NCBI GenBank assembly: GCA_021904315.1
Contig: CM038923.1
Span: 7,012,038-7,076,037, forward strand
Direction of reading: 5' to 3'
DNA length: 64,000 bases
From: Sphagnum magellanicum
Taxonomy: Eukaryota; Streptophyta; Sphagnopsida; Sphagnales; Sphagnaceae
The position numbers were made by a program, and so were the translations under genes. A model generated the notes under the pieces. It was not told the origin of the DNA, ran no database searches, and saw only the letters and a program-made list of their open reading frames with translations. Of this stretch, positions 5,821-56,192 are shown piece by piece. The number at the start of each line of letters is the position of its first letter. The first letter of the stretch is position 1.

Positions 5821-8329
5821 GGTTTGAAGGCCAAGATTATATAAATCAGATCTTTGTGGGAAGCCCAGCTGCTGCAGCAAAAGACAGCTGGTGGTCTTCT
5901 TTCAACAGGTGAATTGGCCTAGTCCAGAAGGCATGGGCCTGTGTGGCCTCCCCCAATGTCCAGATTCCAATAAAGCCCAATTTGTCCACTGGGGCTCAAT
6001 CAGCCGACCATGAACAAATTTTGGTATCATAGTCCTCTCTATATGGGGTTTTGCAGCAAGTGTGTGCCCACATACAAGAAGAGCACGAAACTCGGTGTCC
6101 TCATCTGAGCAACAACGAAAACACTTGTCATGTGACTTGGGGTCCACCCACAAAAGCCAAATCCCATGTATGTAGTCGGAAGTGGATGACAGATTATTAC
6201 ATTGACTTAAAACTTAAACCACCAGATCATGATCAATTTCTATATTTCCTTTCTTTGGGAAATTTTCTCAAATTATCTGGCAAAGCAAATTCCAAACACT
6301 TTCTAAGATGGTTAACTTCTACTGTTTGTTTCATCTTCAAAGGGAGAGACATAAAATACATGCATTAAGTGGGGTCCAGGGATGTAGCCAATTTAGTTTG
6401 AAAGTGTAGCTATACTACCTAATCAAACTTCAGCATAAACAAACCAAAATGGGTAGTGTAACAAAGGGTTAGCCAAAACCCTAATTGATATCCTCAGTAA
6501 ATAAACTCTTCAATGTCTTGACCCCAAAAGCCAAGAAAGGAAACATTAATTCCACATTATACGAAGTAGCCAAAAACAACAGCACCACAGTCCGCTCATG
6601 TGAAAACCCTAACTCTAACATCAAGGAGGTTTTTGCCACCACCCATATGATGACCAACTAATCCAAAGGGGAAAAACAGCTTCCTCCTCTCTCCGTGTGG
6701 GGTAGAAGACCTTGACCATTCCGAATCCTAAACTACTTGTTGGCCTGGAACTTTTACCTTGTGACCCCTAATCAATATTGGAAGAGGACAATCCGGAGCA
6801 CTTCTTACCATGTACCCTGGAATGGGCTCTGCCCAGCCCATTCTCAAGGGTACAACAAGGGTATCACCCATATTGTACCCTCTCACCTTGTTGTACCTAT
6901 GTGAATAGGCAGTGCTGAGCCCATTCCAGTCCCTAACCCAACTGGCATGGATTTCTTTGGGACATTTCATCTTGATAAATTCTGACATGTAAACCATTGA
7001 TTGACAAAGAATGTCTCTAAGTATCCTTTATGAGATTGTAATCTGCCAACTCAAACTATTATATCATAATATTTTGCCAACACAGAATTCTCATTCACAA
7101 TCTGCCTAGGGAATTGAAAGAATAGTCCTCAACACCTGGTTCCATTTCACTACAGTTCAGGTGTGCGGGATCATATATAGCACAATCTAAATGTTCCTAT
7201 TGAATCCTTGGGAATTTTTTATTAGAAAAACAAATTGAGCCTCACATACGAGCCTGCAACAATTCACACACACACAAGTTCCAGTTTGTCAAATATTTAA
7301 CACAACTACAGAACATGCCTCGTGACATTCCAACCCAGATATATAGCTCGCTTCAATTTGTCCAGCTTTCATGATTGGCAATTATAGCTCATGGGTGTCA
7401 GTGTGCGAGTATGAGGAAGCCTGCCTTTTTCCTCCCTTTATCAGCACCAATTTCCCTGGTTCCCAATCATCAAGTAAGCAACTCTTTCACAAGCGGATTT
7501 ATTCCTTGACATTTTCCTTGTAGTATGTCACAATTTTTTGTTTGTTCTTTGCAACATATATACAATACTAGAAGAACCTTCATCTCAAGTGTTCCTTCCA
7601 TCTTTCACATTTTCATCCAAAGCATATATTGTTGTTGTTCCAACTCTCTTCTTCACTCCAACAATTTTGTCAAACACCCATAAAATGCATGTATATATGA
7701 ACAAAAATTTACCTTGGACAAAGGAAACAACAAAAAAGAAGAGTAGAAGTCATGAAAAGAATCAAGGCAGAAAAGAGGAATTGAGTTAAACCCTTTGAGC
7801 AAGGGCCACCATGAATGAGTCCCACAAGTCCCCAATCCATTGGGAACCCATTATGACAAAGTTATGGATGAACCACAACTGAGTAACTAAATATTGTGGC
7901 ACCTGATAACCAACTCATCTCAGTTTGTTTTGGGAGGTGTCAAATGGTTATGGCATGTTAGATTCTCCCCATCCCAACTGTCTTTAATATCCTATTATAG
8001 GTTAATGTGCAAAAGTTTATTTTACAATATTGGAAATTGTCATGGACATCCATCATAATTCATTCAGAATATCACTAATGATTGATCAATGGGGTCAAAC
8101 AAGTAGACTTACCGATTTGCACCACCATTAGCACACCCCTTTGATTGTTATATATGGTTCTACACTTCAGTACCAACGATCAAATCCAAAATGTTTCACA
8201 TATTGTTCACAAGCTCAACATGAAAATGTGTGAACCAGAATGAGATGAATGAAACATTGGCTAAATATTTTTTTCCTGTCATGCTTATATGCATGGCCTC
8301 ATACATGACAGTTGGTTACGGGCATGCCA
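5821..8329. other. spacer with unassigned short reading frames
   Basis: Minus-strand open frames at 5902-6153 and 6728-6997 have mixed, non-repetitive composition (for example GYMVRSAPDCPLPILIRG near 6740-6840), but I recognise no family. Around 6000-6900 the base composition is richer in GC than in the flanks, so a decayed gene or transposon is possible. The rest shows nothing identifiable. Confidence 0.35.
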
Positions 8330-8757
8330 ATCATGCCTTTAGGGTTAATGTACACTCTTAAGGTTAATGTACGTTCTTAGGTTATTGTACGCTATTAGGT
8401 GTTTTAATGTTATGGCTTGTTTAGGGTTTCAGCTTTGTTGACGGTTGTATAAAAGGTCAAGCTCTTCCCTTCTCTTGTTAGTTTTCTAGAATTCCTTTGT
8501 TAAGAAGAGTTTCCTCCATAGTCAAACTGGATTTTTAGATGCTCACGGTGGTTATTACACAACCATCATTTACATACACTATGTTTTCTTTCCTTCTTTT
8601 CAATTTAATTCTTAAAAAATTGCTCTTTGTTGTTTAATGTTGAAAGCAACAAATTTTTCCTAGCTTTGAATTTCTTGGGTTTTTTTTGCTTGCTTGTTTT
8701 TTGTGTTCTTGAATTGCTGCTACTTCTTCTTTTTCTACTCTAGTACTGCAGCTACAA
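8330..8757 (+). promoter_or_regulatory. promoter-like leader with TATA box
   Basis: Three diverged copies of a roughly 20 bp word (GGTTAATGTACACTCTTA, GGTTAATGTACGTTCTTA, GGTTATTGTACGCTATTA) at about 8343-8398 are followed by a TATA box, TATAAAAG, at 8448-8455. The text downstream is pyrimidine-rich (TTCTTTCCTTCTTTTC) and leaderlike. The solo LTR at 8758 cuts this segment, and the same type of text resumes at 9680. Layout and orientation would fit an LTR or leader of the Ty3/gypsy element that starts near 10.65 kb, but I found no matching second copy, so that is an inference. Confidence 0.35.
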
Positions 8758-9674
8758 TGTCGCAACCTTAGCCTTGGGCTTGCGACCAAAGCAAAAGGCT
8801 TGCAAGGGTGCGGGCCAAGACTAAGCCCGGAAGTCGCATTCTCATGCCCCGAAGTGCAAAAGAATGTGAGAGAAAGAACCCTCACACTCCCAAGTAAACT
8901 CCCATGTTGGGAGTTGGAGTCTCGGTGAACTCCTGAATGTTTAGATAGCGATTGCAAGGGTCAAAACTCAATGGCTTGAGGAGTTTTTTATACCATTGAA
9001 AAGTTGTTGAAATGTAGATGTCTAAAATGGGCTCGCATCACCCATTTGGACATTTGAAACACAAGTTATGGCCAAAAGAAGGGTCGGGAGTCAAATTGAC
9101 AATTTGACTCCCGACCACTAAAAGTCAAGAATCAATTTGATTACCTTACGTGCAGATGATGTGCGACATACTGTTTAAAATATTTCGACGAGGGCTACAA
9201 CTTTATTTTAGATCTCATCTCAATCGAAGGTCCACACACAAAGTTATGGGGGCCCCAAAGTTGTGGGAGTCCCAACTTTGGCAATTTTGGGACTCCCACT
9301 TAAGAGTCCCGGGACAAAATGCCATTTGGATGTGGGCCTCGTGGAGAAGCACATAGTATACTATAAGGGGGAAGGTGGTGAGTTCCCCCAAGTTCGGGCC
9401 GTGGTGAGTCTTGTGAGTCCGAGTTTGCCCATGGCTCGTCCTAGTACCAAAAGTGCTTCAACTATGCACTAACCAACTTGTTGTTTAGTTTGTGCAGATC
9501 CGAGTGAGTGATTAAGTGCTTATCATTCTTCCTAGTCCCATCTTGGAGCTCCAACACGCCCCTCTACCCCTCAAAGTGCTATGAGCCAAAAAACGTGCCC
9601 CGACTCCTTGCTCTTCTGTTATTTTCACTTCAAACTCACATTTGGAATTTATCTAAGAACCAAGGGGTGCATCA
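8758..9674 (+). mobile_element. solo LTR, copy A
   Basis: A 917 bp unit begins TGTCGCAACC and ends GGTGCATCA, the TG...CA pattern of long terminal repeats. It is flanked by an exact 5 bp target-site duplication, TACAA (8753-8757 and 9675-9679). No internal retrotransposon region adjoins it, so it is best read as a solo LTR left by recombination between two LTRs. The same order of segments recurs in four other places in this window. A conserved TTTTTTATACCATTG about a quarter of the way in could be its TATA region. It shows clear point divergence from the other copies, so it is old but still well delimited. Confidence 0.85.
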
Positions 9675-9679
9675 TACAA

Positions 9680-10650
9680 TAGGAACAACAATAACCATAA
9701 CTAGTAGCAGTGTAAGCAAGGGAGAAGGGACACCGGAAACAAGTTACAAATTGTGAAGTTCTGAGTTCCGGAGCTTCAAAGGGAGGAAGGAGCAAACAAC
9801 TCCAAATCTTGGTTTGTTGCCAGCTTTAGGTCTTGGGAGCATGTGTACACACACACACACAAGGTTTGATTGCAGTACAAGACCTGCACCATGTGATGCA
9901 ACCCCACATACATTTCCTTTCCTTATATATGGGTTTTGAGGTTAGCATTTGGGCTATGCACTCCTGTGTGTTTTTTAGCTTGCAATCATGTAGTGAATAG
10001 CGCTTTGTAATAACTCTAGAAGAAAAAAAAGAAGAGAATAATAAATTAAAAAAACACGAAGTAGAAGAAAAAAAATTCTCTCTTTTCTTCTGCACGCCAT
10101 TGCTGCAAAGTTCATAGACGCAGATTGCTCTGAAGTGTCATTGTCAACACAGTCACCATCCATTCCGTTCTATTCCATTCTATCACAGTTCCATTCGACA
10201 TCCGTCAACGTCCATCCATCCAATTCTGTCCATTTGGCCCCTTCCTTTCGTCGCCATTCATCCATGTTGTCGTTCATCCCTATCAACGCGCTGTATTCTT
10301 CAAATCGTATGTATTACATACATACATATTCAATACCATATTCTTCAAACCGTATGTATGTATTCTTCAAGATCATATATAGGTTTTTTTTAATTAATAC
10401 ATACATCTACATATTTTGTATTAATATGTATATTTACCTTTTTGTATTAATACATACATTAACTTAATTTTATTAATACATAAATATACAATTATTTCTT
10501 CCTCTACTTTTTCATTTAACACTGGTGATTACAGAAATTGAAAGCTACTTAGGGTACATTTTTTTAACCACTTCACATTTCAGTTTCCATTATGGTTGCA
10601 TTTAATTGCATAGGTTGTGTTAGAACTTTGTAGTTAGTGCTCTATATTGC
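9680..10650 (+). other. leader/spacer before Ty3/gypsy element
   Basis: The sequence interrupted by solo LTR A continues here. A (CA)n run lies at 9847-9861. The segment 10290-10490 is rich in TACATA and ATTAATACATAC words. The text TTGCTACA followed by AAATTTTGGGGCATGGG near 10648-10670 could be an LTR end followed by a primer-binding site beginning TGG; this boundary is tentative. No gene seen. Confidence 0.35.
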
Positions 10651-10988
10651 TACAAAATTTTGGGGCATGGGACAATTCCATGTCCTCGAATGATGAGAGC
10701 ACTACCGCTCAATTAGAGCCAAGGTATTAACTACGAAGTAACACACAATCATTTGAGCCAATTTCTTTGAGCTCACGATCTTCACGACAATACCATCAAA
10801 CATCTACACCACCACCATCATTTAATACAACTCCTACTAGGGATTCAAGTTCAGGTTACAATACGTCAACAATACATCAGAGTCCATTTTGAAGGGTTAA
10901 TTACTGGGGTACGCCTGCTGCCGCACCAACTTTCACACCATCATCGTATATTCTGCTACAAGTTGTTACCTCTATAACCACATACACC

Positions 10989-11975
10989 ATGGAGGTCAAT
11001 AGTTCCTCTGGGATAATTGAAAAGTTCAACGAAAGGCCAGGTACCATTTCTTTGAAGGAGTTCAAGGCAATTTTTTCAACTATGGTTTGTGAATTGGAGC
11101 TCAAATATGGTGTTAATTACACTGAGGTGTTCGCATTTAAACAACTGGCCCATTATGTGCACTATGAGGCATTGGATGTCTACGAGCAACATTCTCTGAG
11201 GATTTTGGGCTTCACCTAAATCCCCAATCCAACTTATGCCATAGCCATTGCCACTGCCTCTCAAGTTGCATTGCAAACTACCATTACACATCATGGGACA
11301 ATGCCCAATAATCCAGATCCGATACCTACTTCAATAAACCTTTTTCCTCAACAACTCATTATTGTTACCACAAACATTCCTTCCCCCATTGATGCACTAG
11401 CTTTTGTTGATCCAATGGGGGAATTCTTTTAAGTTCTTGAATTGGAATTTTTGGTTAAAAGTTCTGAAAAAATTCTATAGCTTGTCACCTTCTCTTGGTA
11501 GAAGGATGAAGCCCTCAAGATGCTCTACAAAAGGCTTTTCAAGCTTAAAGAAGATACTCAGAGCATCACAGACCTGGAAGCTGCCCATTGGTATCTTCAT
11601 TTGTTGGAAGGTACTCCGACACTCCATGCGCAAGTTTTGCAACGGGTTTTTGCAGAATTTGGAGACTTGTACACTTTGCTGGATGTGTACTAAAAAGTTG
11701 GAATTAGCTCATGCACATTATGAAGCCAGTCTATGAGGCCTCCATCACATTCAAGGCCTCAACCACCACCAGTTGCGCCAACATGTTCATCACATTCTTC
11801 TTTAAGGGCTAAAGCGGTGCACTCGATTACACCCTTTCTACCTTCTTGCAACTACTATGACAATCCTACCCACAAAACTAGTGAGTGCAACATTCCTTCC
11901 AAAGATCTCTTTTGTGATTATTGTGGGAAAAAGGGACATCATGAGGCTATTTGTTTTGCCAAGTTCCTAAAATGA
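10989..11975 (+). pseudogene. gag region with zinc knuckle (fossil)
   Basis: Segments resembling retrotransposon gag (SLKEFKAIFSTMVCELELKY near 11060) are followed by a CCHC zinc knuckle, CDYCGKKGHHEAIC, near 11912-11953. Gag would form the nucleocapsid and bind RNA through the knuckle. Position at the 5' side of the protease and polymerase region is as expected for Ty3/gypsy. The region is a broken fossil. Confidence 0.7.
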
Positions 11976-12002
11976 AAGTAATTCCGATTACCACGGCAAA
12001 AT

Positions 12003-12302
12003 ATGCTAGCATCTTATGTTGCCCTTCAACCAAAAGCTAAAGCATTTCAATCTTCCACTCAGGCTTTCCCCACCAAGGGTAATTCTAGTAAAAATGTTAA
12101 GAAGAAGGAGCACAATGTTGACAAGAGGGAGGTGTTTCAAGCCCATGCCACTCAAATTCAAACTTTGCAAAATGAACTTGAATCATTGAAGGCCCAACTT
12201 ACTAATCTAAAAGGTAAATCTTCCCAACCAACTAATCATGCTCAACCTGTACAGGGTTTAGGATCACGAGAGGGACCTCCTAGGTCGTTCTATGGCCTTT
12301 GA
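12003..12302 (+). pseudogene. coiled-coil segment of the gypsy element (fossil)
   Basis: A reading frame downstream of the zinc knuckle contains a lysine- and serine-rich stretch, then a heptad-like helix (QIQTLQNELESLKAQLTNLK near 12153-12212) predicted by eye to be a coiled coil. Such a segment could mediate self-association of the gag or linker region. It is part of the element, not a host gene. Confidence 0.5.
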
Positions 12303-12995
12303 CATGATGCCATGGTTGGGGAGTATGTTTTTTTTAGTGCACACAATTCTAGTCTCACACCAAAATTTGCCTCTTATTTTTGCCCTTCCTATTTCACAGC
12401 ATAAGAGGCTAGTGTGGCACCCAGAGTTTCTGCCACTAAATAGGTAATTCAAATTAATGGACACGCATCTGGTTCAAATCCTATTACCAAGGCTAGAGGG
12501 GCTCGAGCAGTCATGCCATAATCTTTTCGTCCTCTTAACACGGAAGAAGAATGCACATTGTTGGCGAGGGGGGAGGAAACTATTACACCACAAGCTATTA
12601 GGGCATCAAATTCTCGTGTCCCAAGAATACATGTACATCAGGAAAACACACAATTTTCCATTAATCAGCTTATGGAGTGCCAACTTTAAATGCGTGAAGT
12701 GGCGCAAAAGTTTGTGAATACATCATTGTTTAGTTTTCGAAATTTGAAGCTAAGCACCAAGGACATAATTGTAGTACTAAAAGATACCCTAAACACTACA
12801 TCAGGTCCTCTACCAATCCCTGATCCACATGTTACAAGGGTCCCATCTAACACCTTGGAGAGACATTCGATTGGTTCACGTGTTGTAGATGGCGTTCGTA
12901 ATTTGGTCATTAGTTTTAGCATGGTTAAACTAGTGGACTCTCCTACTTCTGATTTCACATTCACATATTAGAACGGAGCTAAAAACACCTCACTT

Positions 12996-13465
12996 ATGGA
13001 TTTGTTACTCAACAAAGGCGTTGTGGATAGCCATTTTCTACACAAAGTCCTTCACTCATTTCCAAAGGTGGTGCCTAGTGAGAAAACTTCCACCGCCACC
13101 AAAGTTGCCAGTGTCCACAATACTGAATCAACAATCCAACTGGGAGGACATACACCCAAAGTGGTATTTCATGATATAAGTGCCCAACCAGTGTTTATTG
13201 GAGTTCAATTTGCCAAAAAGATGGGCATGCTTGACTCCAAACTACGAAAATCAATGTGGCAAATTCACACCGCTAGTGGGAGCGTAGGAGAGGTACTTGG
13301 GGAAAACTCGGATTTGATTGCACTTACCTTCAATGAAGGTATAGATTAGGAGCTTTGCCTACAGGCCAAATGTTTAGTCACCAATGCCATTAGTTACGAT
13401 GTGCTCATTGGGCAAGAGGCCCTATTTCCACTAGGTTTCACAATTAACAACTAGTTCTAGCATGC
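12996..13465 (+). pseudogene. aspartic protease region (fossil)
   Basis: The frame contains AQPVFIGVQFAKKMGM and a later stretch TNAISYDVLIGQEALFPLGF (about 13380-13440), which together resemble the retropepsin-like protease of plant Ty3/gypsy elements: a beta-hairpin around the active site followed by the ILVG-type strand. In intact relatives it cleaves the polyprotein. It lies between gag and the methyltransferase. Broken fossil. Confidence 0.6.
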
Positions 13466-13636
13466 GTACTACCAAGTGAAATTGACAACTAGTTCCAGCA
13501 TGTGTACTACCAAGTGGAATTGACAACTAGTTCCAGCATGCGTACTACTAAGTGAATTTGACAACTAATTCCAGCATGCGTACTACCAAGTGGATTTGAC
13601 AACTAGTTCTAGCATGCGTATTACCAAATGGATTGG
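13447..13636 (+). repeat. 38 bp minisatellite, five units
   Basis: Five consecutive units start at 13447, 13485, 13523, 13561 and 13599, each opening ACAACTARTTCYAGCATG and continuing YGTACTACYAAGTGRA. The period is exactly 38 bp and units differ by only a few bases, so the array expanded after the host element inserted, or late in its life. A period of 38 is not a multiple of three. Confidence 0.93.
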
Positions 13637-13949
13637 GAGATTAATGGCCACCACCTGGGATACATATAACCCTTGATTTACATGGGAACCATAGTCCTAT
13701 GGCTCACCATTATATACTCAAGGAAGCATACATTATTTCCTACATCTAACAAGCTAACCACAAGTGGATAAAGGGAGATGAAGAAGAGACAACTTACGCC
13801 CAAGCTACTAAAAGCTTGAAGGTGGTTCCTACTAACATTCAACATAGACCAAAGGTTCAAAGCAGCCCACAAGCCCTTGGAAAACATTGTTTAATTTTGA
13901 GAACATGGAGAGCCATGGCAAACCGATTAAGCCAATACTTTGTTAGCTA

Positions 13950-15080
13950 ATCACCTAGACATTGCCTAAAGAGGGGATTACATTACTAGAATTCTTTAGT
14001 GATATTAATATAGGTATCAAAGCCCTACTATAGTTAAGGATGGTAGTTCGTAGGTATTTTTACATAAACATTGATCCTATTGTAAGGCAAGTGGCAACAT
14101 CGAGAATGATGGGGCTCATAACCAAATTTCCATGACAGTTTACAACCATCGCATGGAAGGCCAGTTTCACTTTTTTACCTTTTAACATACAACTAATTTA
14201 GAATAAGCATATGGAATTACTTGGTCCCGTGGACTTCATCATTTCAAATTGGGAATGTCAAGGATTTTCAGCGGCTAGATTTGGAGAAAGCTTGACTGAC
14301 ACAAGATCCGGTCTCTTCACGGACATGGTACGATTGATCACCTGGGCTCAATCCATTTCTCCTACAGTTGGTTATGTAATCAAAAACACCCCTTCTCAGT
14401 TTGACCAGAAGGAGAAAGTCCAGGAGCATTACATGTTGGTCAAGCATTACTTTGGAGAGCTGCTCCTATTTGATGCGACACAATGCAATTCCTATGCGCA
14501 CCAGCTGCGCAACTAGTGGACCAACCTTGCACCACTCTCAATTCTGTAGTTGGCTATGAGATACACCATCAGATACCCCAACCTGTAGGTTTCTCACATA
14601 TTGGATGATCAAAGCTCCTACCAACCAATTACAAGGTAAGAAAAACCTCCTTGGTTTCCTACGAACACAATAGGAAAACCAAGAGGTGTTTGGCCCACCT
14701 TTATCTCCTTCCAAGCAGCACACGCCTTTCAAGGAAATGGACCAGGCCTGGTGTATCATCATGCTTCAGCCACTTGGAATGAACCAAACCCAAAAGAAAG
14801 AAAAAGGGTTATGGGGTTCCAAATTGGCACTACCAGTCACACCAAGGTGATTAGATTGGAACGTAATGCTCTACTTGGGAGAGGCATGGACTTGAACTCC
14901 CTTACATGTTTGTTGGTAACTTGTGCATTTTTTCAAATGTACACAACACCAACATTGATTCAATCAGCTTGTAGTTTTTGTGATGCGACTACATGGCACC
15001 CCGACCAAGTACACTCGCTTATCTTCAACGCTTTAAACTTCACTATTAGTGTTGGGGGGAGGAGGTACCATGTAATTTGA
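13950..15080 (+). pseudogene. C5 cytosine methyltransferase-like domain (fossil)
   Basis: Several hallmarks of DNA (cytosine-5) methyltransferases occur in order. A motif-I-like stretch (ITLLEFFSDINIGIKALL) lies near 13978-14031. A motif-IV-like CQGFS follows within ELLGPVDFIISNW (about 14214-14270), then a TDTRSGLFTDMVRLI helix and GYVIKN near 14375. Next are the substrate-side stretch FDATQCNSYAHQLRN (about 14470-14514) and a C-terminal NPKERKRVMGFQIGT with GRGMDLNSL (about 14785-14910), matching motifs VIII-X of the family. In intact relatives the enzyme adds methyl groups to cytosine in DNA. Its place between protease and RT suggests expression as part of the polyprotein. Broken fossil. 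Confidence 0.8.
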
Positions 15081-15386
15081 CTCAAGTTGTTTCTAGAAAT
15101 ACATCAATTTTTGGAGAAACAATTACAACCTTCTATGAATCTGCACAGTTAAATAGTGGAGAACCCAATACACCAAGTTCTTCAAACACACTTTTCAACT
15201 CCATTCCATGTGTTTCCAACTACCCTTTTGTTATGGGGAACTAGCTCATTAAAAAAAAAAAAAAACGAGGTCACAGACTTGATAATTAAGTATGAAAATG
15301 TGTTCATATTCTCAATGAAAGACTTCAGTAGGTGTAAGACCATGCAGTTCTCTATAGACCTTACAGATGAGACACCCATCTATTAG

Positions 15387-16335
15387 ATGAAGCATAGGTT
15401 AAGTAAGCATGAGTGGGAACTAGTAGATGAAAGATGCAAAGAACTCCATGAGGCTGGTTTCATTCAGCCATCAAGTTCTGATTTCGCAGCCGCTACAGTA
15501 ATGCTAGCAAAGAAGGATTCAGCTGGATTATGGATTGAAAAAAGGATGTGCGGGGATTATAAACTTTTGAACCTAGTTACACCTCAAGACAGGTACCCCA
15601 TGCCCATCCCTGAAAAATTGTTTGATAGCATTGGAGACTTAAACATCTTCACAATTGTGGATTTGAAGCAAAGCTTTAACCAAATTGTGTTCGTTACGAA
15701 GGATCACAAAAAAATGACATTCCATGGAAGCAACAAGTTATGGGAATGGCTTGTGATGCCTTTTGGATTAAAGAATGCACCTGTCTTCTTTCAGCGAATC
15801 ATGGACCAAGTTTTCGAAGGGGCATATTTCCTGAAATGCTACATAAATGACGTCCTAGTGCATAGCAAGGGATTCTTGCAGCACTTGGCTCATCTTGAAG
15901 AGTTATTCAAGAAGCTCCATGAAGTTAATATGAAGATCCATCCTAAAAAATTTGTGTTTACTATCACCTCAGTAGTCTATCTTAGATATAAAATTTTGCC
16001 AAATGGTATTATGGTTCATTGGGCCAAAGTAGTAGCCCTTTTGGAGATGCCCAATCTTACTGATGTTCACATTTTGAGGAACTTCATCGGACTATGTAAT
16101 TATTATAAGATTTATGTCCAAGACTTCAGTACTATTGTTCGTCCTCTCTATGCATTGTTAAAGAAGGATGTTGCTTGGACATGGAGTGAAAAGGCTCAAG
16201 AAGCTTTCAACACACTTAAGGAAAAACTTTTAGAGTTCCTCATTCTAAGAAAACCTAATTTCAGCAAGGTCTTCATTCTACACACTGACTGGAGTGCTCT
16301 TGGTATTAGTGTTATTCTTAATGAGGAAGGCAAAT
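15387..16335 (+). pseudogene. reverse transcriptase domain of gypsy element (fossil)
   Basis: This is the longest open stretch in the window, about 316 residues, and reads as a Ty3/gypsy reverse transcriptase: CGDYKLLNLVTPQDRYPMP, LFDSIGDLNIFTIVDLKQSF, WLVMPFGLKNAP and the palm-region stretch following FLKCY, then the thumb/connection stretch LRNFIGLCNYYKIYVQDFS. It continues into RNase H (HTDWSALGI). In intact relatives it copies the RNA genome into DNA. The element as a whole is broken. Confidence 0.9.
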
Positions 16336-16640
16336 AATATGTTATTGTCTATGCATCCCAAAGTAACAACAAGGTTGAGAGCAACTACTTTTCATACGAG
16401 GGGGAATGTCTTGCTATTCTATGGGCCATCATACATTTCAGGCCATATCTTTATAACACCAAATTCACTTTGTATATCGACCATCAACCTATCAAGTGGT
16501 TAATGACCAATAACAAGCTTACTAGTAAATTAGTTTATTGGGCGCTTATACTTCAAGAATATGAATTCAAGGTTATTCACCGACTTGGTTTTACACATCA
16601 GAACATGAATACCATGTCATAAAAACCCTTCACTACCTCT
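16280..16640 (+). pseudogene. RNase H region (fossil)
   Basis: The stretch after RT contains HTDWSALGISVIL, YEGECLAILWAI and YIDHQPIKWLM-like text, the usual order for the Ty3/gypsy RNase H that removes RNA from the RNA-DNA hybrid. Broken fossil. Confidence 0.7.
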
Positions 16641-16794
16641 GAAGATTTCTTAGAAACCAGGTAAGACTTCGACCAGATTCCAACAATGCATGTATCTTAT
16701 GCATCGAGTTATCTTGCACTAGTACAATGTAAGTTGGTTGAGCATCCCATTGTGGATATATGGGAGGACTTGGACACTTTGAGGTTTCTTTAGC

Positions 16795-18000
16795 ATGGGG
16801 AGTACCTTCCCCAAGTTACATCAATTCAACAAGATCGCATACAACATCGGTCCAAATGCTATTCATGGAAAGACAATCACTTTGTCCGATGCTTACCACA
16901 AGGCGACAGAGTGGTTCTTCCACCACATGAATGACCTAGTTTTATTCAAAAGGTACACTCAGAGCTTGGACACTTTGGAGTTAAGCATACTTATAGCCTT
17001 CTCACTCCTCATTACCATTGAAGAAATATGTATGTTCAAGTCTAAGACATCATTGCTAGGTGTGAAAAATGTGATAGAATGAAAACTTCCTTCTCCTTTC
17101 GACAGCTCATTTTTTTTCACTTCCTATTAAGGGCATGTTCTATCGCTGGTCATGTGATTTAGCTGGAGAATTACCACAAACCTCCAAGGGTAATGTTTAC
17201 ATCATGATTATGATTGAACATTTTTTGAAGTGGGTCGAGCTTGCGCTACTGGACAAGTCATCACACAGCACCAACCAAGTTTTCTTACAATAGGTCCTAA
17301 GTAGGTTTGGGGCTTATGCTGAGTGCCTTACTGATCAAGGATCAGAATTCAGAGGAAAATTCCTAGACCTACTCGATCATGTTCTCATTGACCATCGTTG
17401 GACTTCAAGGGATCATCCCCAAGCTGATGGCCTTATAAAAAGGATGGTTCAGACATGCAAAAAGGGACTTCGGAAAATTTGCCTCACTGGGAACAAAGAG
17501 GATTGAAACCTCGCCCTACCTTACATCGCCATGGGTTATAGGATGTCCAAACACACCTCTTTGTCTCATTTCGTTCTTTACTTTCTACTTTTTGGGAGAC
17601 ATCCCATTCCACCCTCTTCCATTGTTGCTCAAATGGACTAGGTTGTGGATTTGGACACCCTAACCACTTGGGTTAGGGTCATCGCAGAGAGGGTGTTCTA
17701 TTCTAGAGGGTTATGCCCATGGCCATGAAGAACTTGTCCATTGCATAGCATCGAGACACCTTACGGTATGCACACACACGACGTGATAGTTATAAACCTA
17801 AGGTGAGACAATTTGATGTTGGTGACTTTGTGTATCTCCAACAACAACTTAATGATACTCTAGACACTTTTTCCAATCGCACTATCTTGAGGATTAAGGT
17901 GATCAGGCCTTCAAGTGTGTTGGAATTGCAAGGAATTGACAGACACACAATTTGGGATCACTTCAAAAATTGTGCACCCTGTCACTTGCCGAACTTGGAT
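16795..18000 (+). pseudogene. integrase region (fossil)
   Basis: A zinc-binding-like N-terminal part (near 17020-17100), then core-domain stretches (EHFLKWVEL near 17220, LTDQGSEFRGKF near 17330, SRDHPQADGL near 17410), and a C-terminal part (FDVGDFVYLQQQ near 17812; DHFKNCAPCHLPNLDP near 17957) are readable. Intact relatives use it to insert the DNA copy into the genome. Broken fossil. Confidence 0.8.
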
Positions 18001-18019
18001 CCTCCTATCATCACGTCAA

Positions 18020-18200
18020 CTTGGATTCCTCCCCTTGATTATCCATGTCAGGTATGTCAAAGGACAGACGATGCTAATCAAATGCTACTTTGCAATTATT
18101 ATTATGGTGGATACCATCTATTCTACCTCAAACCAGAGCTCATTCAAATTCCTGCTAACATTTGATATTGTTCATCATGTTCTCCTGTAGTACCTTGATT
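18020..18200 (+). pseudogene. C-terminal PHD-like finger (fossil)
   Basis: Directly after the integrase C-terminal part comes YPCQVCQRTDDANQMLLC and then GGYHLFYLKPEL, which follow the zinc-finger layout of PHD domains (Cys-x2-Cys, a small hydrophobic LLC knuckle, His before a hydrophobic residue, then KP). PHD fingers read histone H3 tails. In chromoviruses a chromodomain occupies this position, so an analogous role in target choice is a reasonable inference. Broken fossil; the rest of the finger runs to about 18195. Confidence 0.7.
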
Positions 18201-18233
18201 TCTACTCGAACCATGCCACGCTTTTCCCGGCTC

Positions 18234-18249
18234 AGGTCTGGGGGGGATA
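18234..18249 (+). other. polypurine tract candidate of gypsy element
   Basis: AGGTCTGGGGGGGATA lies about 40-70 bp after the PHD-like finger, where the plus-strand primer tract of an LTR element is expected. No LTR start could be confirmed after it. Confidence 0.45.
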
Positions 18250-19211
18250 CACGAGAATTTCCTCTTAGCCTCCTCTTGTGCATTGTATATATATGTGCGT
18301 GCATCTCTTTTTGGTTGATTAGTTTCTACCTTTGACCGGTTTTTATCATTTTATTACTGGGCACTCTGGCAAATGAAAAAAGAGGTGGTCAAATATTCCT
18401 TACATTGGCCTTCAAATGGAAATAAAATAATTGATTTGCCATTAAAGTGTAGGCGCTCCATAGAAGCCAGAATCCCAGGGCTTTACCCAGTGGAAAGACC
18501 GTCTCCATTTTTTAATATTTTCCTCCTTTGAAATGCTCACTGGAGTGGGGCATTTGGTTTTGAAATGCAATGCAAATAGTGGAGGAAAAATACACTGGCT
18601 AACATGCCTGCCAGTTACTACAAAAATCGGAGGAGGTCTTTGTATAGTGGGACACTGCTGTCACTACCTCCCACCCCCATGAACCATGGGCAGAGACCAT
18701 GAGGTCCCAGGTGGGTTGCAGTGCCTTCCCCTTTATGACAACCAAGGAGATGAATGGATGTTCTTTGCCTTAGATAGGGTTCAGAGGTTCCAAAAACAAA
18801 ATACTCATGGGGATGCTTTCCCCCAAAAGTTTGTTTTTTTTAATGTGTAGTTAATTCAGTTTGAATGGATCAAGATGAATCAATGGATAGAACATACATA
18901 GATGGATGGATGAAACACCTAGATAAACGGATGGATGGAGTAATTGGAAATTGTGACCCATGGGACATCACATTAGAGGAGGTTGAAACTTGGAACCATG
19001 GATGCTAAGGGACAGATAATGGCCAGAGTAAACCATGACCCAGTTGTGGAGGAACCCAGACTGAGTTGACATGAGGTTCGTTACCCTATCTCTTAACAAA
19101 ATTGGTCATGTAGGTCGGAAAATAGGTGGCTACTCAGTAATAGATGCATGTAGATGGTTAGTAAGTAGATAAGTGCTGGTGGGCTGTCAATAGGCAGGTA
19201 GTAAACACTGC

Positions 19212-19664: not shown

Positions 19665-20867
19665 TGCAACTAGAGAATGGGCAGAATTGACCTTCTATGG
19701 CCTGTTCACTGCCGTTAAAAGGAGCAAGGTCCCCAAGACAAAATTGGTGGCCTTAATAGAAAGAAGGTAGGTTTTTTAAGAAGAAAGAAAAGTAAGTGAC
19801 AAAAGCAAGGGGGAGGGGCTGATTCTGGCTCCCATTGAGGCCATAGAGGGCTGAATCACCCCCCGGCCCCCTTCCCCCATGTATTTTATGTATACCCATC
19901 AGGTGCCCCACATGGATCCCCACATTTATGAAATCCAAGAGAGTCTGGCATGGACTATGGTGCAACAGGTATTGTGACAACCCCTTTGAAAGACCTTGGG
20001 ATGATAATAATGACTTAGGTGCATGAGCATTGTTCTCTTTTACCCACCCCCAGCACATGCCTAGGATCAATGTATGTTAGAGGTGCCTTCTTTGCCCACA
20101 AATGAAGTGAACCTAGTCTGAACAAAGGATTTCAAAATAGTCTCAAAATTGTGTATACCTAATTGATCCCTTGCATCATGCATGCATCAATGCAATTTGT
20201 TAAACATGTTCTTGTTTGGAAACATTGAAGCTTCAAGAAGCTTTAATTTTTCATTTTTTGTAACCAAATTGGTTTTGAGAGGTTCCGTACTTGGTACCAT
20301 CTTAGTATGGGTCCTCGAATCACAAACTTGATTCTATATTTTCGACGTGTCGAAACATCGAATGCTTGTATTTGGAAGCTTACGCTGAAAGCAGCTCTTC
20401 ACATACGAAGTGATCGTTTCTAGTCCTCGCGTCCCAATCCCTTTGCAAATCCAAAAGATCACTATCGATTTGAATTGTCCCTGACAATCTTTGGCATTGG
20501 GGTACTTGGTAGGACAAATACACCTCACGCACCCATTCCCCCATCCTTGTTGCATTTGATGCTCAACATCTCGGAAACTCTCTCTCTTTATTGATTGCTA
20601 CAGCAAACGGCACAGCTGTTACACAATGCAACTGTTACAAAGTCCCATGAACATGACATGAAGAAGCTTGGGTTTGTTGAAGGCTAAGCTAGCTAGCTCC
20701 AAGACCTTGGAGACAAAAGGCAAAAAAATTGTAGTGCAAGAAAAAACTTGGACCTGCAACCTGGTGCAATAGGGTGGGGTCCTAAAATTGGTGAGGAACC
20801 TGGACCCCTTTGCAGCTGAGAAGTCTTTGTCTTTCTCTATCCTTTCTCTTGATATGGCAGTGAGCTT

Positions 20868-21058
20868 AGTGTACAATGTGTACCTACTACGTACACCCTC
20901 TTGGTCTCATTTGCAAGCCTCCTTGGGTTGAGTTGCCCTAGGTCAGTCCAATGCGTGTTCATAGTGTGCAATGTGTACCTACTAGGTACTCGCCCTTTGT
21001 CTCATTGTTAAGCCTCCTTGGGTTAAGTCACCCTAGGACGTTCCAATGCTGTGTCCAT
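20868..21058 (+). repeat. tandem duplication, 95 bp unit
   Basis: AGTGTACAATGTGTACCTAC at 20868 recurs as AGTGTGCAATGTGTACCTAC at 20963, and the similarity runs through CTCATTTGCAAGCCTCCTTG / CTCATTGTTAAGCCTCCTTG and CCCTAGG...CCAATGC to the end of each unit. The period is 95 bp with about two units. The copies differ by scattered substitutions. No gene seen. Confidence 0.85.
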
Positions 21059-33651: not shown

Positions 33652-33839
33652 CATTAGTACAAAAGTGGGGTGTAATTCATTAGCCTCAATCACTGTGGGA
33701 CCTTTAAAGTGAAATAAGTTCATTACATTTTAATGATTTCACCTTGGTTAAAGTTATTTCACTATAATATCATTATGTAAACATCGTGTTTCACTATTAA
33801 TTGACATAATTCACTATTATAATTTACTGTGGTAAATAG

Positions 33840-34950
33840 GTTTATTTTTATGTTGTTGTTTTCAATACCCCATGTTACTTTATGATATACCTTATACTAT
33901 TTTTTATTACCTTAACTATTTTACGTTATTCTACATTAAAGTATCATAATTAGGTTATTATATGCTTTTTATTTTAAGTTATTTTAAATTAAATTATTCA
34001 ACTAACCTTAGGCTATACCTTAGGTTATTTTATTTTAAGTTAATATATGTTATTTCAAGTTATACTTTAGGTTATTCAAGGTCATTTTACTTTCTATTAT
34101 TATAAATTATTTTATCTTAAATATATATAATAATCTAAAATAATCTAAAATAAAATATAATGATTTGAAGTAAAATAACTTAGAATAGCCGATAATAGCA
34201 TATGACAAATAATTTAGAATAACTTACAATAAAATAACTACTAATAGCCTATGATAATATAACCTAAAATATCCAATAATAGTTTATAATAAAATAACCA
34301 CCAATATTCACTAATATAATATCCACTATCAATCACCAATAGCTTATGATATTTTAACCTAAAATAATCACCAATATCCACCATTAAAATATTCACCAAT
34401 AGCCATTAATAGCCTATGATAATTTAGCCCAAAATAATTACCAATAACCACTAATAAAATATTTAATAACATCCATTAATAGAATAGCCACTAATGGCCA
34501 TTAATAAAATAGGCACTAATAGCCACTAATAAAATAGCCATTAATAAAATATTCATTAATAACCACCAATAAAATAACAACCAATAGCCACAAATAAAAT
34601 AACCAACAATAGTCACCAATAGAATAGCCACAAATAATTTATGATAATATAACCTATACTAATTAATAATAACATAAAGTGAAATAACCAAAAATAACCT
34701 CACATAGTCAAAAATAGCCTAAGATGAAATAATTTAGAATAGCAAAAAAAACTTATAATAGTTATAAATAATCTAAAGTGAAATAACCTACAATAACCAA
34801 AAATAATTTAGAATGATCGAATGTAACCTAGGGTGAAATAACTAAAAATAGCCATAAATAATCGTAAATAATGTAGGGTGAAATAACTTAGAACAATGAA
34901 ATATAACCTTAGAATAGTTAAAAGTAGCTTAACATAGGTAGTATTATTAT
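33840..34950. repeat. degenerate inverted array of TTATTTTAAGTTA / TAACCTAAAATAA
   Basis: To about 34105 the text is built from plus-sense words such as TTAGGTTATTTTATTTTAAG and TTATTTCAAGTTATAC. From about 34130 it switches to the complementary sense (AATAATCTAAAATAATCTAA, AATAGCCACTAATAAAATA, AAATAACCTAAAATAACC). The array as a whole is therefore an imperfect giant inverted repeat, with a shorter left arm (about 260 bp) and a longer right arm (about 800 bp). The period is irregular (about 10-25 bp). Confidence 0.75.
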
Positions 34951-35229
34951 ATTAACAAAAGAACTATCCATTTATTAAACCTTTTTTTTTTCAAAAGAAT
35001 GGTCAATAAAATCTTATTGAATAGTGATATTCAAAAAAAAATTGTTCAAATGATTTTACACTTTAAAAAATAAATAAATGTAATTGTGTACATTATTGAA
35101 AAAAAATTTAATTAAACTTTAATCATTTCATTTGGACAAAATCTCAATAAGATATGAATTTTCAAATTTTATGTTTTTGTAATGTTTAAAATGAAGCATT
35201 TGATAAATAGAATATAATGTAACACATTA

Positions 35230-37501: not shown

Positions 37502-38377
37502 TCTCACAACCCTAGCCTTAGGCTCACAACGAAAGTAAAGACTTACAAAGGTGTAAACCAAGAGTGAAGCCCGGGAGTCACATTTCATGCTCCCAAGAGT
37601 GTAGGAAAGTGTGAGGGAATGAACCCCACATTCCCAAGTGGGCTTCCACTTTAGGAGTTGGAATTTTCATGGACTCCTGAATCTTCATAAGGTGATTGCA
37701 GGGGTCAAAACTCATTGGATTGAAGAGTTCCTTATACCATTGTAAAACTCTTGAAACTTAGATGTCTAAAATGGGTTCGCACGACCCATTTGGATACTTT
37801 AAACACAAGTTATGGCCAAAAGAAGGGCTGAGAATTGCCCTAATTTACTTGCGTGCAGGTGGCATGTCACATATCGTTAGAAAGCTCTTGACGAGGTCTA
37901 CAACCTTGCTTTAAACCTCACATCAATCAGAGGTATGCCAAAAAAATTATGGGCTTCCAAAGTCGCGAGAGTCCTAATTTCAAGAATTTCAGGACTCTCA
38001 ACTTGGGAGTCCTAGGACAAAATGATATTTGGGTGTTAACCTCGTGTCCAAGCACAAAGAATATTATACGGGGGAAGGTGGTGGCTTCCCCCAAGTTCGA
38101 GCTCTGATGAGTCTTGTGAGTCCATGTTTGCCCGTGGCTTATCCGTGCACCAAAGGTGCTCCAACTGTGCACTAACCAACTTGTCGTTTGGTTTTTGCAG
38201 ATCCATGTGAATAATTAACCCGCTTGTCACTTGTCCTAATCCTCATTACAGAGTTCTAACACGCCCCTCTACCTCTGAAGTGCTACGAGCCAAGGATCAT
38301 ACCTTAATTCCTTGTCCTTTCATTATTTTCACCTTAAATTCGAAGTTGAGTCTATTGAGGAGCTTGAAGGTGCGTCA
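37502..38377 (+). mobile_element. solo LTR, copy D
   Basis: An 876 bp copy of the solo-LTR family of 8758-9674, with the same order of segments (start like TCGCAACCCTAGCCTTAGGCT, a TTATACCATTG word, ACACAAGTTATGGCCAAAAG, the GGGGGAAGGTGGTG stretch and an end GGTGCGTCA). Flanks CTGGC and GTGGC match at 4 of 5 positions, an aged 5 bp target duplication. It lies within a coding-like remnant. Confidence 0.75.
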
Positions 38378-46325: not shown

Positions 46326-47128
46326 TGTCGCAACCCCATTTTGAAGGAAGTGTGAGGTCGCCACTCACACTCCCGAAAATGGGACTCCCAAAAACTCAGA
46401 GTGCGATTGCAGGGGTCAAAACACCTCATGTTGAAGCGTTCTTTATACTATTCGAAAGGTCTTAAAGTGTAGATGCCCAAAATGGCCTCACATGAGCCAT
46501 TTGGACATTTGTAGCAGAAGTTATGGTCGAAAGAAAGGTCGGGAATCAAATTGGCAGTTTAACTCCCGACCACTAAAAGTCGAGAATCGACCCGATTCTG
46601 GTGTGTGCAAGTGAAGTGCGACTCATCGTTGAAAGATCTCGAGGAGAGCTACAACTTTGGTTTAGACCTTGTCACGATCCGAGTTTGGGGCAAGAAGTTA
46701 TGCGCGTCCAAAGTCCCGGGAGTCCAAACCGGGACAATTTCGGGACTCCACTTTGGGAGTCCCGGGAAAAAGAGCCATTTGGATGCAAGTGTGGCGGAGA
46801 GCTATAGAGAATACTATATGGGGGAAGGTGATGGCTTCCCTCGAGTCCAAGCCGTGGTGAGTCAAGTGAGTCCAAAATAGCCCGTGGCTTGTCCCAACAC
46901 CAAAAAGGTGCAGAATGAATTCTAACCAACTTGTGGTTGGATTTGGATGCAGGACCGTATAATTGAGTAAGTTTGTCCCTCATCCTAGTCTATCCTAGAG
47001 CTTTCAGCACGCCTCTTTCACCCCCTTTTAGTGCTGGAAACTGGGAGCGTGCCCCGAGTCCTAGAAATTCCGCAATTTGAGTAACCTAGCCCCGACTTGG
47101 GGCTAATTTGGGACTTGGGAGCGTGTCA
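46326..47128 (+). mobile_element. solo LTR, copy B (nested)
   Basis: An 803 bp, shorter and more diverged copy of the solo-LTR family: it starts TGTCGCAACCCC, contains TTCTTTATACTATTCG, GCAGAAGTTATGGTCGAAAG and a GGGGGAAGGTGATGGC stretch, and ends GAGCGTGTCA. Flanks AAGCC and AAGAC match at 4 of 5 positions. Because it lies within the CACTA-type element and has its own target duplication, it inserted after that element. Confidence 0.75.
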
Positions 47129-48329
47129 AAGACCACCTATTTTTAATTTTAAAATATTAATTAATGAAATATAATTCATCCAATTTATGGCTAATAAAAT
47201 GTTGACACGTGGTGCCTAGGTAAGAAAATAATAATTAAACCCTATTAAGTAAGTAGGTTTATTTATGTATGTAAATAGGTTGAAAAATAGCTAGGCTTAG
47301 GTTATATAAGTAGGTTTAGAGTAATCCGATTTAATTTTTAGGTTTGACCTTTTCATAAAGGTCAAACTTTTTTCATTCATTCATCCCCAATGGCACTTGG
47401 CATTTGGTTTCAACATAACTACTTATATACTGAGCCAAATAGAATTGGAAGCCAAAGGATATGGGTTAAAACATTCCATTGCATACCTCATGAACCAACC
47501 TAGTTGCACATTAGATGCAACTACTATATTAAAGTATAATAGCTAGGGGAGGGTTCTATTGTTTTTGGTGTCTAAACAAAACTTGAAGCCCTCGTTTTGG
47601 CGCATCTAACACACTAAGAGTTGTTGAAAACAAATTAAAAATGAAAAGTTATGGCCCCCCAAAGTAAAGGGGGTCAAAAAACTCAAAAAAGAAACTATTG
47701 AGACCGGTTCTTAAACACCCAAAAAGTTCATTTTGTGTTTTTTTTTTTGCTATTAGAGTTCCAATGTGATTTGTAGGACTTCAAATGGCGCTCCTACAAC
47801 ATTTTAAATCGTTTAAAATGAATAAGAAATAAGAAAGTTATGAGCTTTGAAAGTAGGAGGGGTCCTAAGAAAAAAATAAAAAACAAAACGTTTTATAACT
47901 TGGAAAGCTTATTTTCCTTCTTATTAGTTTTTCATTACTCCTTTTCTTTTGCACTTCAAAGGTGATTATAAGATATTTAGTAATTATGATTACTTAATGA
48001 AAGTATGATTTTAATATTATTATATAGTTTAAATTAATAATTATTTAGGACATTTGTATACTTGTAGGTTAATTAGTGTAGCCTATTTACATTCATATTT
48101 TAACATAAATTATAAAATTTAAATATATAATACCTATTATTATAATATATATAATTGATTATCACTATAATTATAAGAAAAATTTAATTAATAATTATGA
48201 TTATTTATAATAAATTTATAATATTATCATATTAATTAATTTTGAATAATTTTTTGTTTGATCAAATGTACATTTTCTGAAAAAATATTCTGAAATAAAA
48301 TAAAGTTAAACACATTTAAACCATGGTTT

Positions 48330-49010
48330 TGTTTAACTTAATTTAACATAATTTAGTTTAGCAATAATTAATTTAACCTAATTTAAATTAACCATTGTCA
48401 ATTTTAACCTAATTTAGTTTAACCATAAATATTTTTGCATAATTTATTTTATCCTATTTTATTTTATTTTATTTTATTTTATGCACAATAAATATAGTCT
48501 AATTTAGTTTCACCATAAATATTATAGCCTAACTTAATTTAACCATAATTAGTTTGGCCTAATTTAATTTAACCATATTTATTTTAACCTAGTTTAATTT
48601 AGCTTAATTAAGTTTAGCCATAATTAATATAATATAATTTAATTTAGCCTAACTTGATTTAGCCATAATTAGTTTAGCCTAACTTAATTTAGCCATAGTT
48701 AATTTTTAAAAATTTAGTTTAGCCATAATCGGTTTAATCTAATAAATTTAGCCATGGTTAATTTTAACCTAATTGAATTTAGGCATAATTATTTTAGCCT
48801 AACTTAATTTAACTATTGTTAGTTTAGTTTATTTTATTTTATTTTAACCATAATGAGTTTAATTTAGCTTAATTTAACTTGATTTAATATAGTTTAATTT
48901 AAGTTAACCATAATTAATTTATCCTAACTTAATTTAGCCATGGTTAGTTTAACTTTTTAATTTATTTAACCTAGGTTAGTTTAGGCTAGCCTAAGTTAGC
49001 ATGGGGTTAA
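48330..49010 (+). repeat. degenerate TTTAGTTTAGCCATAATTAG array
   Basis: TTTAGTTTAACCATAAATA, TAGTTTGGCCTAATTTAATT, ACTTGATTTAGCCATAATTA, AGTTTAGCCTAACTTAATTT and many variants repeat every 25-35 bp. A pure (TTTTA)n run sits at 48455-48482. The array is inside the CACTA-type element, paralleling the array inside the element at 33652. Confidence 0.85.
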
Positions 49011-49291
49011 CCTTAGTACTAAAGATACATAATACTATTATATATAGCCTATGTAGATATATTAAATATAGTATTTAAATATGTATAAATTTAGGCCACT
49101 ATTTTTATGACACATGTCCATGTTGTACACATTTAGTTGCATGTTAGTTGCAGACATAACCGCATGGCCCAAAAATTATAGAATACCAAATTTGTAGTTG
49201 CAAACATGACCAAGATAGTTATAAATGATAATCAATTGAATGTCGCTTGCATAGTGACTGGTTGCAAATGACAAGATTTCTAGTAGCGTAC

Positions 49292-50370: not shown

Positions 50371-51284
50371 TGATGCACTCCCAACCTCCTTTACAGATTC
50401 AAACGTGCGTTTGAAGTGAAAACATTAGAAGAGTAAGGAGTTAGGGCACGCTCCCTGGTTGACAACATTTTGGGGGTAGAGGGGCGTGCTAGAACTCCAA
50501 AATGGGGACTAGGAAGAGTGACAAACATCAATTATTCACACGAACCTGCACAAACCAAACAACAAGTTAGTTAGTGCATAGTTTGAACATTTTTGGTGTT
50601 AGGACAAATCATGGGCAAATTCGAATTCACAAGACTCACCATAGCCCGAACTTGGGGGAAGCCACCACCTTCCCCCTTATAGTATACTTTGTGCCTCTCC
50701 ACGAGGCCCACATCCAAATGGCATTTTGTCCCGGGAGTCCCAAATGGGAGTTTCGAAATTTTCAAAGTTGGGACTTCTGTGACTTTGGGGCCCCATAACT
50801 TTATGTGCAAACCTCTGATTGAAATGAGGTTTGAAGCAAAGTTGTAGCCTTCATCAAGATCTTTCTAACGGTATGTCACACGCCACCTTCACACAAGAAA
50901 ATTGAGTCGATTCCCAACTTTTAGTGGTCGATAATCAAATTGTCAATTTGACTCCTGGCCTTTCTTTTGGCCATAACTTGTGTTTTAAATGTCGAAATGG
51001 GTCATGCGAGCCCATTTTAAACATCTACGTTTTAATAACTTTTCAATAATATAAAGAACTCCTTAATCCATTGGGTTTTGAACCCTGCAATTGCCCTCTG
51101 AAGATTCAAAAGTTCACTTGGACTCCAACTCTCAACATGGGAGTTCACTTGGGAGTGTGAGGGTTCTTTCCCTCACACTCTTTTGCACTCCTGGGAGCAT
51201 GAAATGCGACTCTCAAGCTTAGTTTTAACCCGCACCCTTGCAAGCCCTTGCCTTAGTCGCGAGCCTAAGGTTAGGGTTGCTACA
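50371..51284 (-). mobile_element. solo LTR, copy C
   Basis: A 914 bp copy of the solo-LTR family in minus orientation: plus-strand text starts TGATGCACTCCC and ends GGTTGCTACA, the complement of the TGTCGCAACC-type start. An exact 5 bp target duplication ATATG flanks it (50366-50370 and 51285-51289). By eye it is the closest relative of copy A (shared GACAAAATGCCATTTGGATG, GGGGGAAGGTGGTG and TTCGGGC stretches). Confidence 0.88.
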
Positions 51285-55934: not shown

Positions 55935-56192
55935 ACTCCACCTAAGGAATGTTACTAGATGCAACCATAAGTTGTTTGTAATTGTTGCATATATGAATTA
56001 TCAAAAGTGATGTGTTTTGGACTTTTGATTTAATAAAATGAAGTTTTGTCAAAGGGTCATGATGTCAAGTGTGATTATTTTTGAAATTTGAGTAATAGTA
56101 GGCTTTTCATTCAACATGATTAGAATTTCACGAGTTTTGGTTCACTTTCATTAGTATTACACAATTCTCCTTGTGCACATGTTAAAGTTATA

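Follow-up and report, generated by a model that had tools for sequence, protein, structure and literature searches.

A decayed Ty3/gypsy element, probably the remnant of one copy of a large family with a Dnmt3-type methyltransferase between protease and reverse transcriptase

Described elements and the copy in the window

Retrotransposons with a Dnmt3 domain in Pol have been described from Klebsormidium nitens, where KnitGypsy-Dnmt3 is an LTR Gypsy element with terminal repeats in the order A-coding-B-A-B, and from Symbiodinium, where SymbioDIRS-Dnmt3 has the same repeat order, and de novo CG methylation by retrotransposon DNMTs was reported as well (PMC5890265). These descriptions bear out the statement of the earlier note that such methyltransferases are known from charophyte algae and dinoflagellates. 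No report of a methyltransferase-carrying retrotransposon from a land plant was among the matches listed in literature searches and the name KnitGypsy was found in PMC5890265 only, both absences being weakly tested. The elements analyzed here resemble KnitGypsy-Dnmt3 as described in that paper in the Dnmt3 class of a methyltransferase (MTase) in Gypsy Pol, in the apparent purifying selection on this domain and in DIRS-type A-coding-B-A-B repeats despite Gypsy domains; the window copy keeps A1 and part of B1. They differ from its description by their high copy number in a land-plant-like genome, by the presence of at least two old lineages, by 4-bp target duplications, by a UAG of the leaky type (lineage B), and by a putative self-priming signature and an ECQ motif (both lineage A). 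A PHD finger is present here, a word that is absent from the main text of PMC5890265. SymbioDIRS-Dnmt3 is described with a tyrosine recombinase (PMC5890265), in contrast to the rve integrase and the target duplications of our elements, and no tyrosine recombinase, a DIRS trait, was among the Pfam matches of the pieces scanned. The DNMT3 host genes of plants likewise encode an unrearranged Dnmt3-type MTase, but by their description (PMC6453930) they have a C-terminal DUF3444, whereas the MTase is followed by reverse transcriptase (RT) in our elements.

We consider it very probable that the window, i.e. the whole stretch of 64,000 nucleotides analyzed, holds the dead remnant of one copy of a large, recently active Ty3/gypsy family, in which a Dnmt3-type MTase is regularly present between protease and RT and a PHD finger follows the integrase. 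This reading includes modes of expression and priming and a single capture of the MTase, as proposed below; what the sequences themselves show is how the domains are ordered and linked, that the MTase is under selection, that two old lineages have this order in common, and that target duplications and DIRS-like split repeats are present. The window copy defines lineage A, and lineage B comprises the loci L001, L003, L004 and L009. By comparison with other copies, the element in the window extends from about 8277 to 18343 and has the following features:

8277..8611, + strand: 5' terminal repeat A1, starting with TGTC, sharing about 75% identity with repeat A in recent copies
8758..9674, no strand given: 920-bp repeat of another family between A1 and the element body, from repeat comparison
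10893..12302, + strand: gag region with a zinc knuckle (by eye), fragmented in two frames
12972..13346, + strand: protease region, DISA versus DTGA in open copies, from alignment to open copies
13447..13634, + strand: 38-bp tandem repeat, 4.9 copies, between protease and MTase
13950..14942, + strand: Dnmt3-type C5 methyltransferase domain, 331 codons with 8 in-frame stops
13977..14030, + strand: motif I (SAM binding), ITLLEFFSDINIGIKALL, aligned to open copies and DNMT3
14250..14270, + strand: motif IV, WECQGFS, with ECQ as in lineage A (PCQ in other lineages)
14382..14387, + strand: motif VI, KN versus EN in open copies, Lys replacing Glu at 14382-14384
14793..14819, + strand: motif IX/X region, KERKRVMGF
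15387..16334, + strand: reverse transcriptase, open, PF00078 with E 8.5e-20
16338..16619, + strand: RNase H, PF17917 with E 7.8e-23
16783..18045, + strand: integrase region, broken and out of frame, DNA 86% identical to other copies from 17338
18046..18141, + strand: PHD finger, 3' of the integrase, 17.5 bits against a cut-off of 24 (open copy 46.4 bits)
18247..18343, + strand: truncated repeat B1, about 100 of 178 bp
8758-9674, 37504-38377, 46384-47078, 50371-51284 and 56184-57092: copies of the repeat of about 920 bp

Gag, protease and integrase of the window copy were placed by alignment to other copies, to which the gag DNA is 83% identical over approximately 10608-12015. Only RT and RNase H exceed their Pfam cut-offs in the window, the MTase and the PHD finger scoring below, and the window pieces of protease and integrase (16783-17079) gave no Pfam match to a protease or an integrase, respectively. 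Repeat A2 was not found elsewhere in the window and the 3' end of the window copy is lost; an LTR search within the window alone returned nothing, the repeats being detectable only via other copies. Among the other open reading frames of the window, ten were tested and had no Pfam match at E ≤ 0.01, and no tRNA or Rfam match was obtained. The dispersed repeat of about 920 bp has at least five copies in the 64 kb with 59–81% identity, one of them inside the element. The window further contains long AT-rich, minisatellite-like arrays with nested periods (47598-49078 and 33700-34970) and, downstream of the element, two tandem 95-bp units that are 81% identical (20860-21049).

The Pol order PR-RT-RNase H-integrase of Ty3/gypsy elements, of which the window retains RT and RNase H, was found in one open copy with a frame of 2379 aa that spans gag through to a PHD finger located behind the integrase. 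When this frame was scanned as three overlapping pieces, the first 358 aa (gag) had no Pfam match, the middle piece of 1799 aa contained protease (gag-asp_proteas, PF13975, 28.7 bits against a cut-off of 28.2), MTase (35.9 bits), RT (101.9 bits), RNase H (130.8 bits), H2C2 (57.7 bits) and rve (44.4 bits), all above cut-off, and the adjoining piece of 288 aa contained the PHD finger with 46.4 bits. Further copies have long open frames around the MTase, e.g. of 1207-1936 aa. Two metagenome proteins, P0163 and P0243, continue in one frame from the MTase end into the RT, and two others (P0246 and P0248) run from the MTase into the first RT residues. A Dnmt3 domain is fused into Gypsy Pol in our elements.

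Identity, catalytic motif and selection of the methyltransferase

Reading of 13900-15120 in three frames placed motifs I, IV, VI, VIII and IX/X of the MTase in a single frame without frameshifts. The order of the motif text seen in the earlier note holds, but the labels hold only in part: CQGFS, taken for motif I, belongs to motif IV, and the true motif I (ITLLEFFSDINIG, 13977-14030) lies upstream; TDTRSGLF is not motif IV but follows directly after it, whereas SYAHQLRN and KERKRVMGF were rightly assigned to motifs VIII and IX/X, respectively. The motif names follow the common C5 MTase nomenclature, and positions were aligned to DNMT3. The expectation that a Pfam profile would recognize the domain in the translated 13.9-15.1 kb failed for the window copy itself, since its longest open MTase piece (104 aa, N-terminal) matched PF00145 with 19.6 bits and E 6.9e-4, below the cut-off of 22 bits, and the C-terminal piece 14640-15077 had no Pfam match. 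It came true for the relatives, as all seven that were scanned passed the cut-off (26.3-38.4 bits); the open-frame copy of the same genome scored 35.9 bits and lineage B 50.4 bits. Because relatives score above the cut-off, we regard the identity of the window domain as settled. The 104-aa piece had 241 related proteins at E ≤ 1e-3, the best 120 of the 241 with 67-100% identity, and no relative in viral contigs. A peat-moss host, which is probable, would account for the large number of relatives from metagenomes, as these may stem from peat. A chance match of motifs was ruled out by these 241 relatives and the seven of seven above the PF00145 cut-off. Via the relatives, the proposed position of the domain (13950-14942) between protease and RT of a Ty3/gypsy element was confirmed.

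Judged by its sequence, the window copy is dead and its MTase is broken, with eight stops, the exchange of Glu for Lys in motif VI and DISA in the protease, a decay that the earlier note did not mention. The idea of the earlier note that such elements could methylate their own DNA copies and in this way affect host silencing is therefore inapplicable to this copy. Compared to one open copy, C>T or G>A changes in the window copy number 83 and reverse transitions 32 (80/33 and 81/42 for two others), and seven of the eight MTase stops of the window copy are single C>T or G>A changes. CHG sites were struck most (23 of 74), next to 8 of 40 CG and 52 of 360 CHH sites. Since this is the spectrum that plant methylation and deamination would leave, the dead copies look methylated by the host, and the pattern speaks of the host and not of the element's own enzyme.

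The best match among solved structures was a DNMT3 for both lineage A (P0248, 2.3e-4) and lineage B (DNMT3A, 4.9e-11). Lineage B additionally matched 4onj, which we take to be a plant DRM (3.2e-5), HhaI (1e-4) and entries named DRM2 (0.027). Motifs I to X are linear and unrearranged, and this order together with the best match to DNMT3 places the domain in the Dnmt3 class and rules out a rearranged MTase of the DRM type. Fold matches add little because the AlphaFold model of lineage A is poor (pLDDT 50); the 50 Foldseek matches listed were DNMT3 entries with TM 0.21-0.27 (by query length) and were given no weight.

To our knowledge, C5 MTases keep a Pro before the catalytic Cys, and we know of no active C5 MTase with Glu at this position. 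The Pro-Cys of motif IV, a Dnmt3 trait, is missing in lineage A, the window copy included: in 37 of 39 lineage-A copies, Glu precedes the Cys (Lys and Gly in one each), as it does in 16 of the 18 readable copies of a further 20 (Asp and Gln in one each), as opposed to Pro in seven of seven copies of other lineages. PCQ is kept in lineage B and in the loci L017, L020, L057 and L090. By the replacement of Pro with Glu, catalysis may have been changed or lost in lineage A. The coding changes nevertheless show purifying selection on the lineage-A MTase in five of the six pairs with an open MTase, in which pN/pS was 0.10-0.28 compared to neutral medians of 0.51-0.68 and at most 3 of 300 simulations were as low as observed. 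The mutation spectrum of the simulations was taken from these coding differences themselves, and the pairs have a common history and are not independent. The sixth pair (C17-C20, 12 changes) had a pN/pS of 0.61, like the neutral median, and showed no constraint; lineage-B pairs had omega values of 0.27-0.93 on few changes.

The combination of ECQ with continuing constraint implies that either activity survives in an altered form or the domain serves another purpose. It might be retained in the polyprotein to bind DNA or RNA and not to methylate, catalysis in lineage A having ended with ECQ, which would agree with a near-universal Glu before the Cys in a domain that stays constrained. We consider this somewhat unlikely, given that the aligned lineage-A rows preserve the catalytic Cys and Gln, the Glu-Asn pair in motif VI as well as motifs I and VIII-X, and that PCQ is retained in lineage B and the four further loci named above.

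Termini, expression signals and origin of the lineages

Termini were determined in nine copies chosen mainly for long open frames (seven of lineage A, two of lineage B). All nine have the ends TGTC...GACA between 4-bp target duplications; rve integrase (44.4 bits) and a short target duplication together are a Ty3/gypsy trait. The repeat order was A-coding-B-A-B in five of the nine copies and A-coding-B in four, which rules out a simple pair of LTRs. Repeats A and B measure about 311 and 178 bp in lineage A and 287 and 107 bp in lineage B. In the lone lineage-B copy with A2 and B2, these two are separated by about 250 bp, and the repeats of lineage B are thus not an exact copy of those of lineage A. 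Several insertions are recent, as A1 and A2 are 97.8-99.7% identical. Both repeat forms carry target duplications and could arise if two kinds of circle are integrated after being cut at the junction of B and A (GACA-GC-TGTC); the short A-coding-B form could also derive from recombination between B1 and B2 after insertion.

Leaky stops of the Tobamovirus type follow the rule UAG-CAR-YYA. In all four lineage-B copies, the MTase frame ends with UAG followed by CAACUA (three copies) or CAACCA (one copy), and in L090 a UAG followed by CAAUCA is the only stop in 2067 codons. The frequency of the CAR-YYA six-mer is 0.2-0.3% of positions in two of these loci. As the four B copies are close relatives, the leaky stop represents two independent sightings at most. 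UAG and the next six bases fit the Tobamovirus rule in lineage B and L090, but here the putative leaky stop is located between a retrotransposon MTase and RT. Readthrough, if it occurs, would place the MTase in the same product as Gag and protease, with Gag-protease-MTase as the main product, RT-integrase as a rare one and the MTase present in Gag-like amounts. In L003 of lineage B, the frame is open through the MTase and shifts soon after the UAG.

Self-priming of reverse transcription is known from Tf1. In seven of seven lineage-A copies, the 9-12 nt that follow A1 (12 nt in five copies, 9-10 nt in two) match the complement of a site inside A1, and this site lies 33-34 nt downstream of TATATAA in the three copies with that string preserved exactly. 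No control position, out of 300 for each copy, was as good, and the complementarity was absent in both lineage-B copies tested. This signature looks like self-priming, by which the 5' end of the element's own mRNA would prime reverse transcription in lineage A. As in Tf1-type gypsy elements, the primer binding site is complementary to the predicted 5' end of the mRNA; unlike here, Tf1 lacks an MTase, and the RNA start of our elements is deduced only from the TATA-like box. The leaky-type UAG-CAR-YYA (lineage B and L090), the self-priming signature (lineage A) and ECQ in place of PCQ (nearly all lineage-A copies seen) appear to be new. In the life cycle that we propose, the polyprotein would carry the MTase into the particle, where it would methylate freshly synthesized cDNA prior to integration; the PHD finger would guide the integrase to a type of chromatin.

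Between lineages A and B, the MTases are 42% identical over 324 aa and the RTs 48%. Lineage B has rve and a PHD finger at its end, and its protease shows a DSGA motif by eye without a Pfam match. In L004 of lineage B, unrelated AT-rich sequence replaces the protease side within about 20 codons upstream of the MTase, perhaps as a 5' truncation. The MTase pieces of the decayed loci L017 and L020 are 32-47% identical to A or B and may represent a third lineage, and L057 is near B (65%). A scan of prokaryote genomes yielded a single locus, L090 (CADCWO010000201.1, 1-6203), filed under a cyanobacterial (Synechococcales) MAG. Its gypsy element looks intact and has gag-like zinc knuckles (by eye), MTase, RT, RNase H and integrase, two long open frames and a protease match below its cut-off. 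Since these are genes of a eukaryotic retroelement, we read the contig as a contaminant, perhaps derived from an alga similar to Klebsormidium if a GC content of about 55% and the habitat of such algae are a guide; eukaryotic DNA is probably present in the MAG bin. L090 and B are closer to each other (MTase 50%, RT 66% identical) than either is to A (MTase 42-45%, RT 47-48%). P0130, an RT from the leafy liverwort Calypogeia fissa, has 84% identity with lineage A along 265 aa and is sister to the A clade, not nested in it, with a support of 99/96 and the bootstrap not settled.

Lineages A and B have the same order of domains, and both have a PHD finger, DIRS-like repeats and target duplications of 4 bp. 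The capture of the MTase most likely happened once, before they split. Independent captures of Dnmt3 by A and B, or horizontal passage of one lineage between plants and algae, would fit the MTase identity of only 42% and the algal capture being termed an independent event in PMC5890265. Both are unlikely, considering that the insertion point and the PHD finger are common to A and B and the split repeats similar, that RT and MTase identities alike unite B with L090 to the exclusion of A, and that the Calypogeia RT is placed beside and not within the A clade, subject to the unsettled bootstrap. With a single capture, a more detailed scenario can be offered tentatively, with our confidence somewhat short of even: a Ty3/gypsy ancestor would have captured one Dnmt3 before the lineages seen in the moss-like genome and in the contig resembling a crust alga split, and would have kept it as a part of replication. 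Lineage B would make the enzyme with Gag by leakage of the stop, lineage A would have retuned it by the exchange of Pro for Glu beside the catalytic Cys, and integration would possibly proceed via circles cut at the junction of B and A, giving both repeat forms.

Linkage of methyltransferase and reverse transcriptase in the genome

The 439-Mb assembly of 31 contigs was searched from both the RT and the MTase side. With the RT query, 91 of 5287 first-look candidates were scored, which were 83-92% identical. A PF00145 match on the same strand was located 687-1951 bp upstream of the RT in 49 of the 91 copies, and an MTase was also present in all 20 copies sampled from the remaining 42 (every second in list order). 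The MTase was thus found at the same place in 69 of the 69 RT copies examined (out of the 91). The spacing between MTase and RT was 268 bp in 15 of 21 lineage-A pairs measured and 85-310 bp in the rest. The earlier note had named repeated co-occurrence at other loci of the assembly as support, and these 69 copies provide it; its idea of a capture by a Ty3/gypsy element would have fallen if the MTase text occurred only apart from this family, and it prevailed. With the same domain at the same place in many copies, some of them recent and intact, the MTase looks like a regular part of the element family and not like an accident. That a host DNMT gene or pseudogene merely adjoins a single gypsy copy, or was transduced by it on one occasion, would be compatible with the window copy taken alone, but is practically negligible in view of the 69 of 69 RT copies with MTase, the near-fixed spacing, the open fused frames and the resemblance of the host MTases found to DRM, MET1 and CMT.

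In a land-plant-like genome, a recent high-copy family built in the same way suggests an old association between MTase and element, and one that is selected for. Its recent open copies provide a means to ask why an element keeps the silencing enzyme of its host and whether it marks its own cDNA.

From the MTase side, the PF00145 profile gave at least 124 matches in the assembly. Of the first 30 loci, 28 are of the retroelement type, and L002 and L005 look like host DRM genes; L066, L067 and L069 presumably correspond to MET1, DRM and CMT, going by their sequence features. Within a short flanking stretch, the MTase was followed by an RT on the same strand in 24 of the 28 loci and in 12 of 15 sampled from the other 94 (every sixth). 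The seven loci without a same-strand RT in this stretch were L006, L015, L017, L029, L057, L060 and L063; in L015, an RT is located on the opposite strand.
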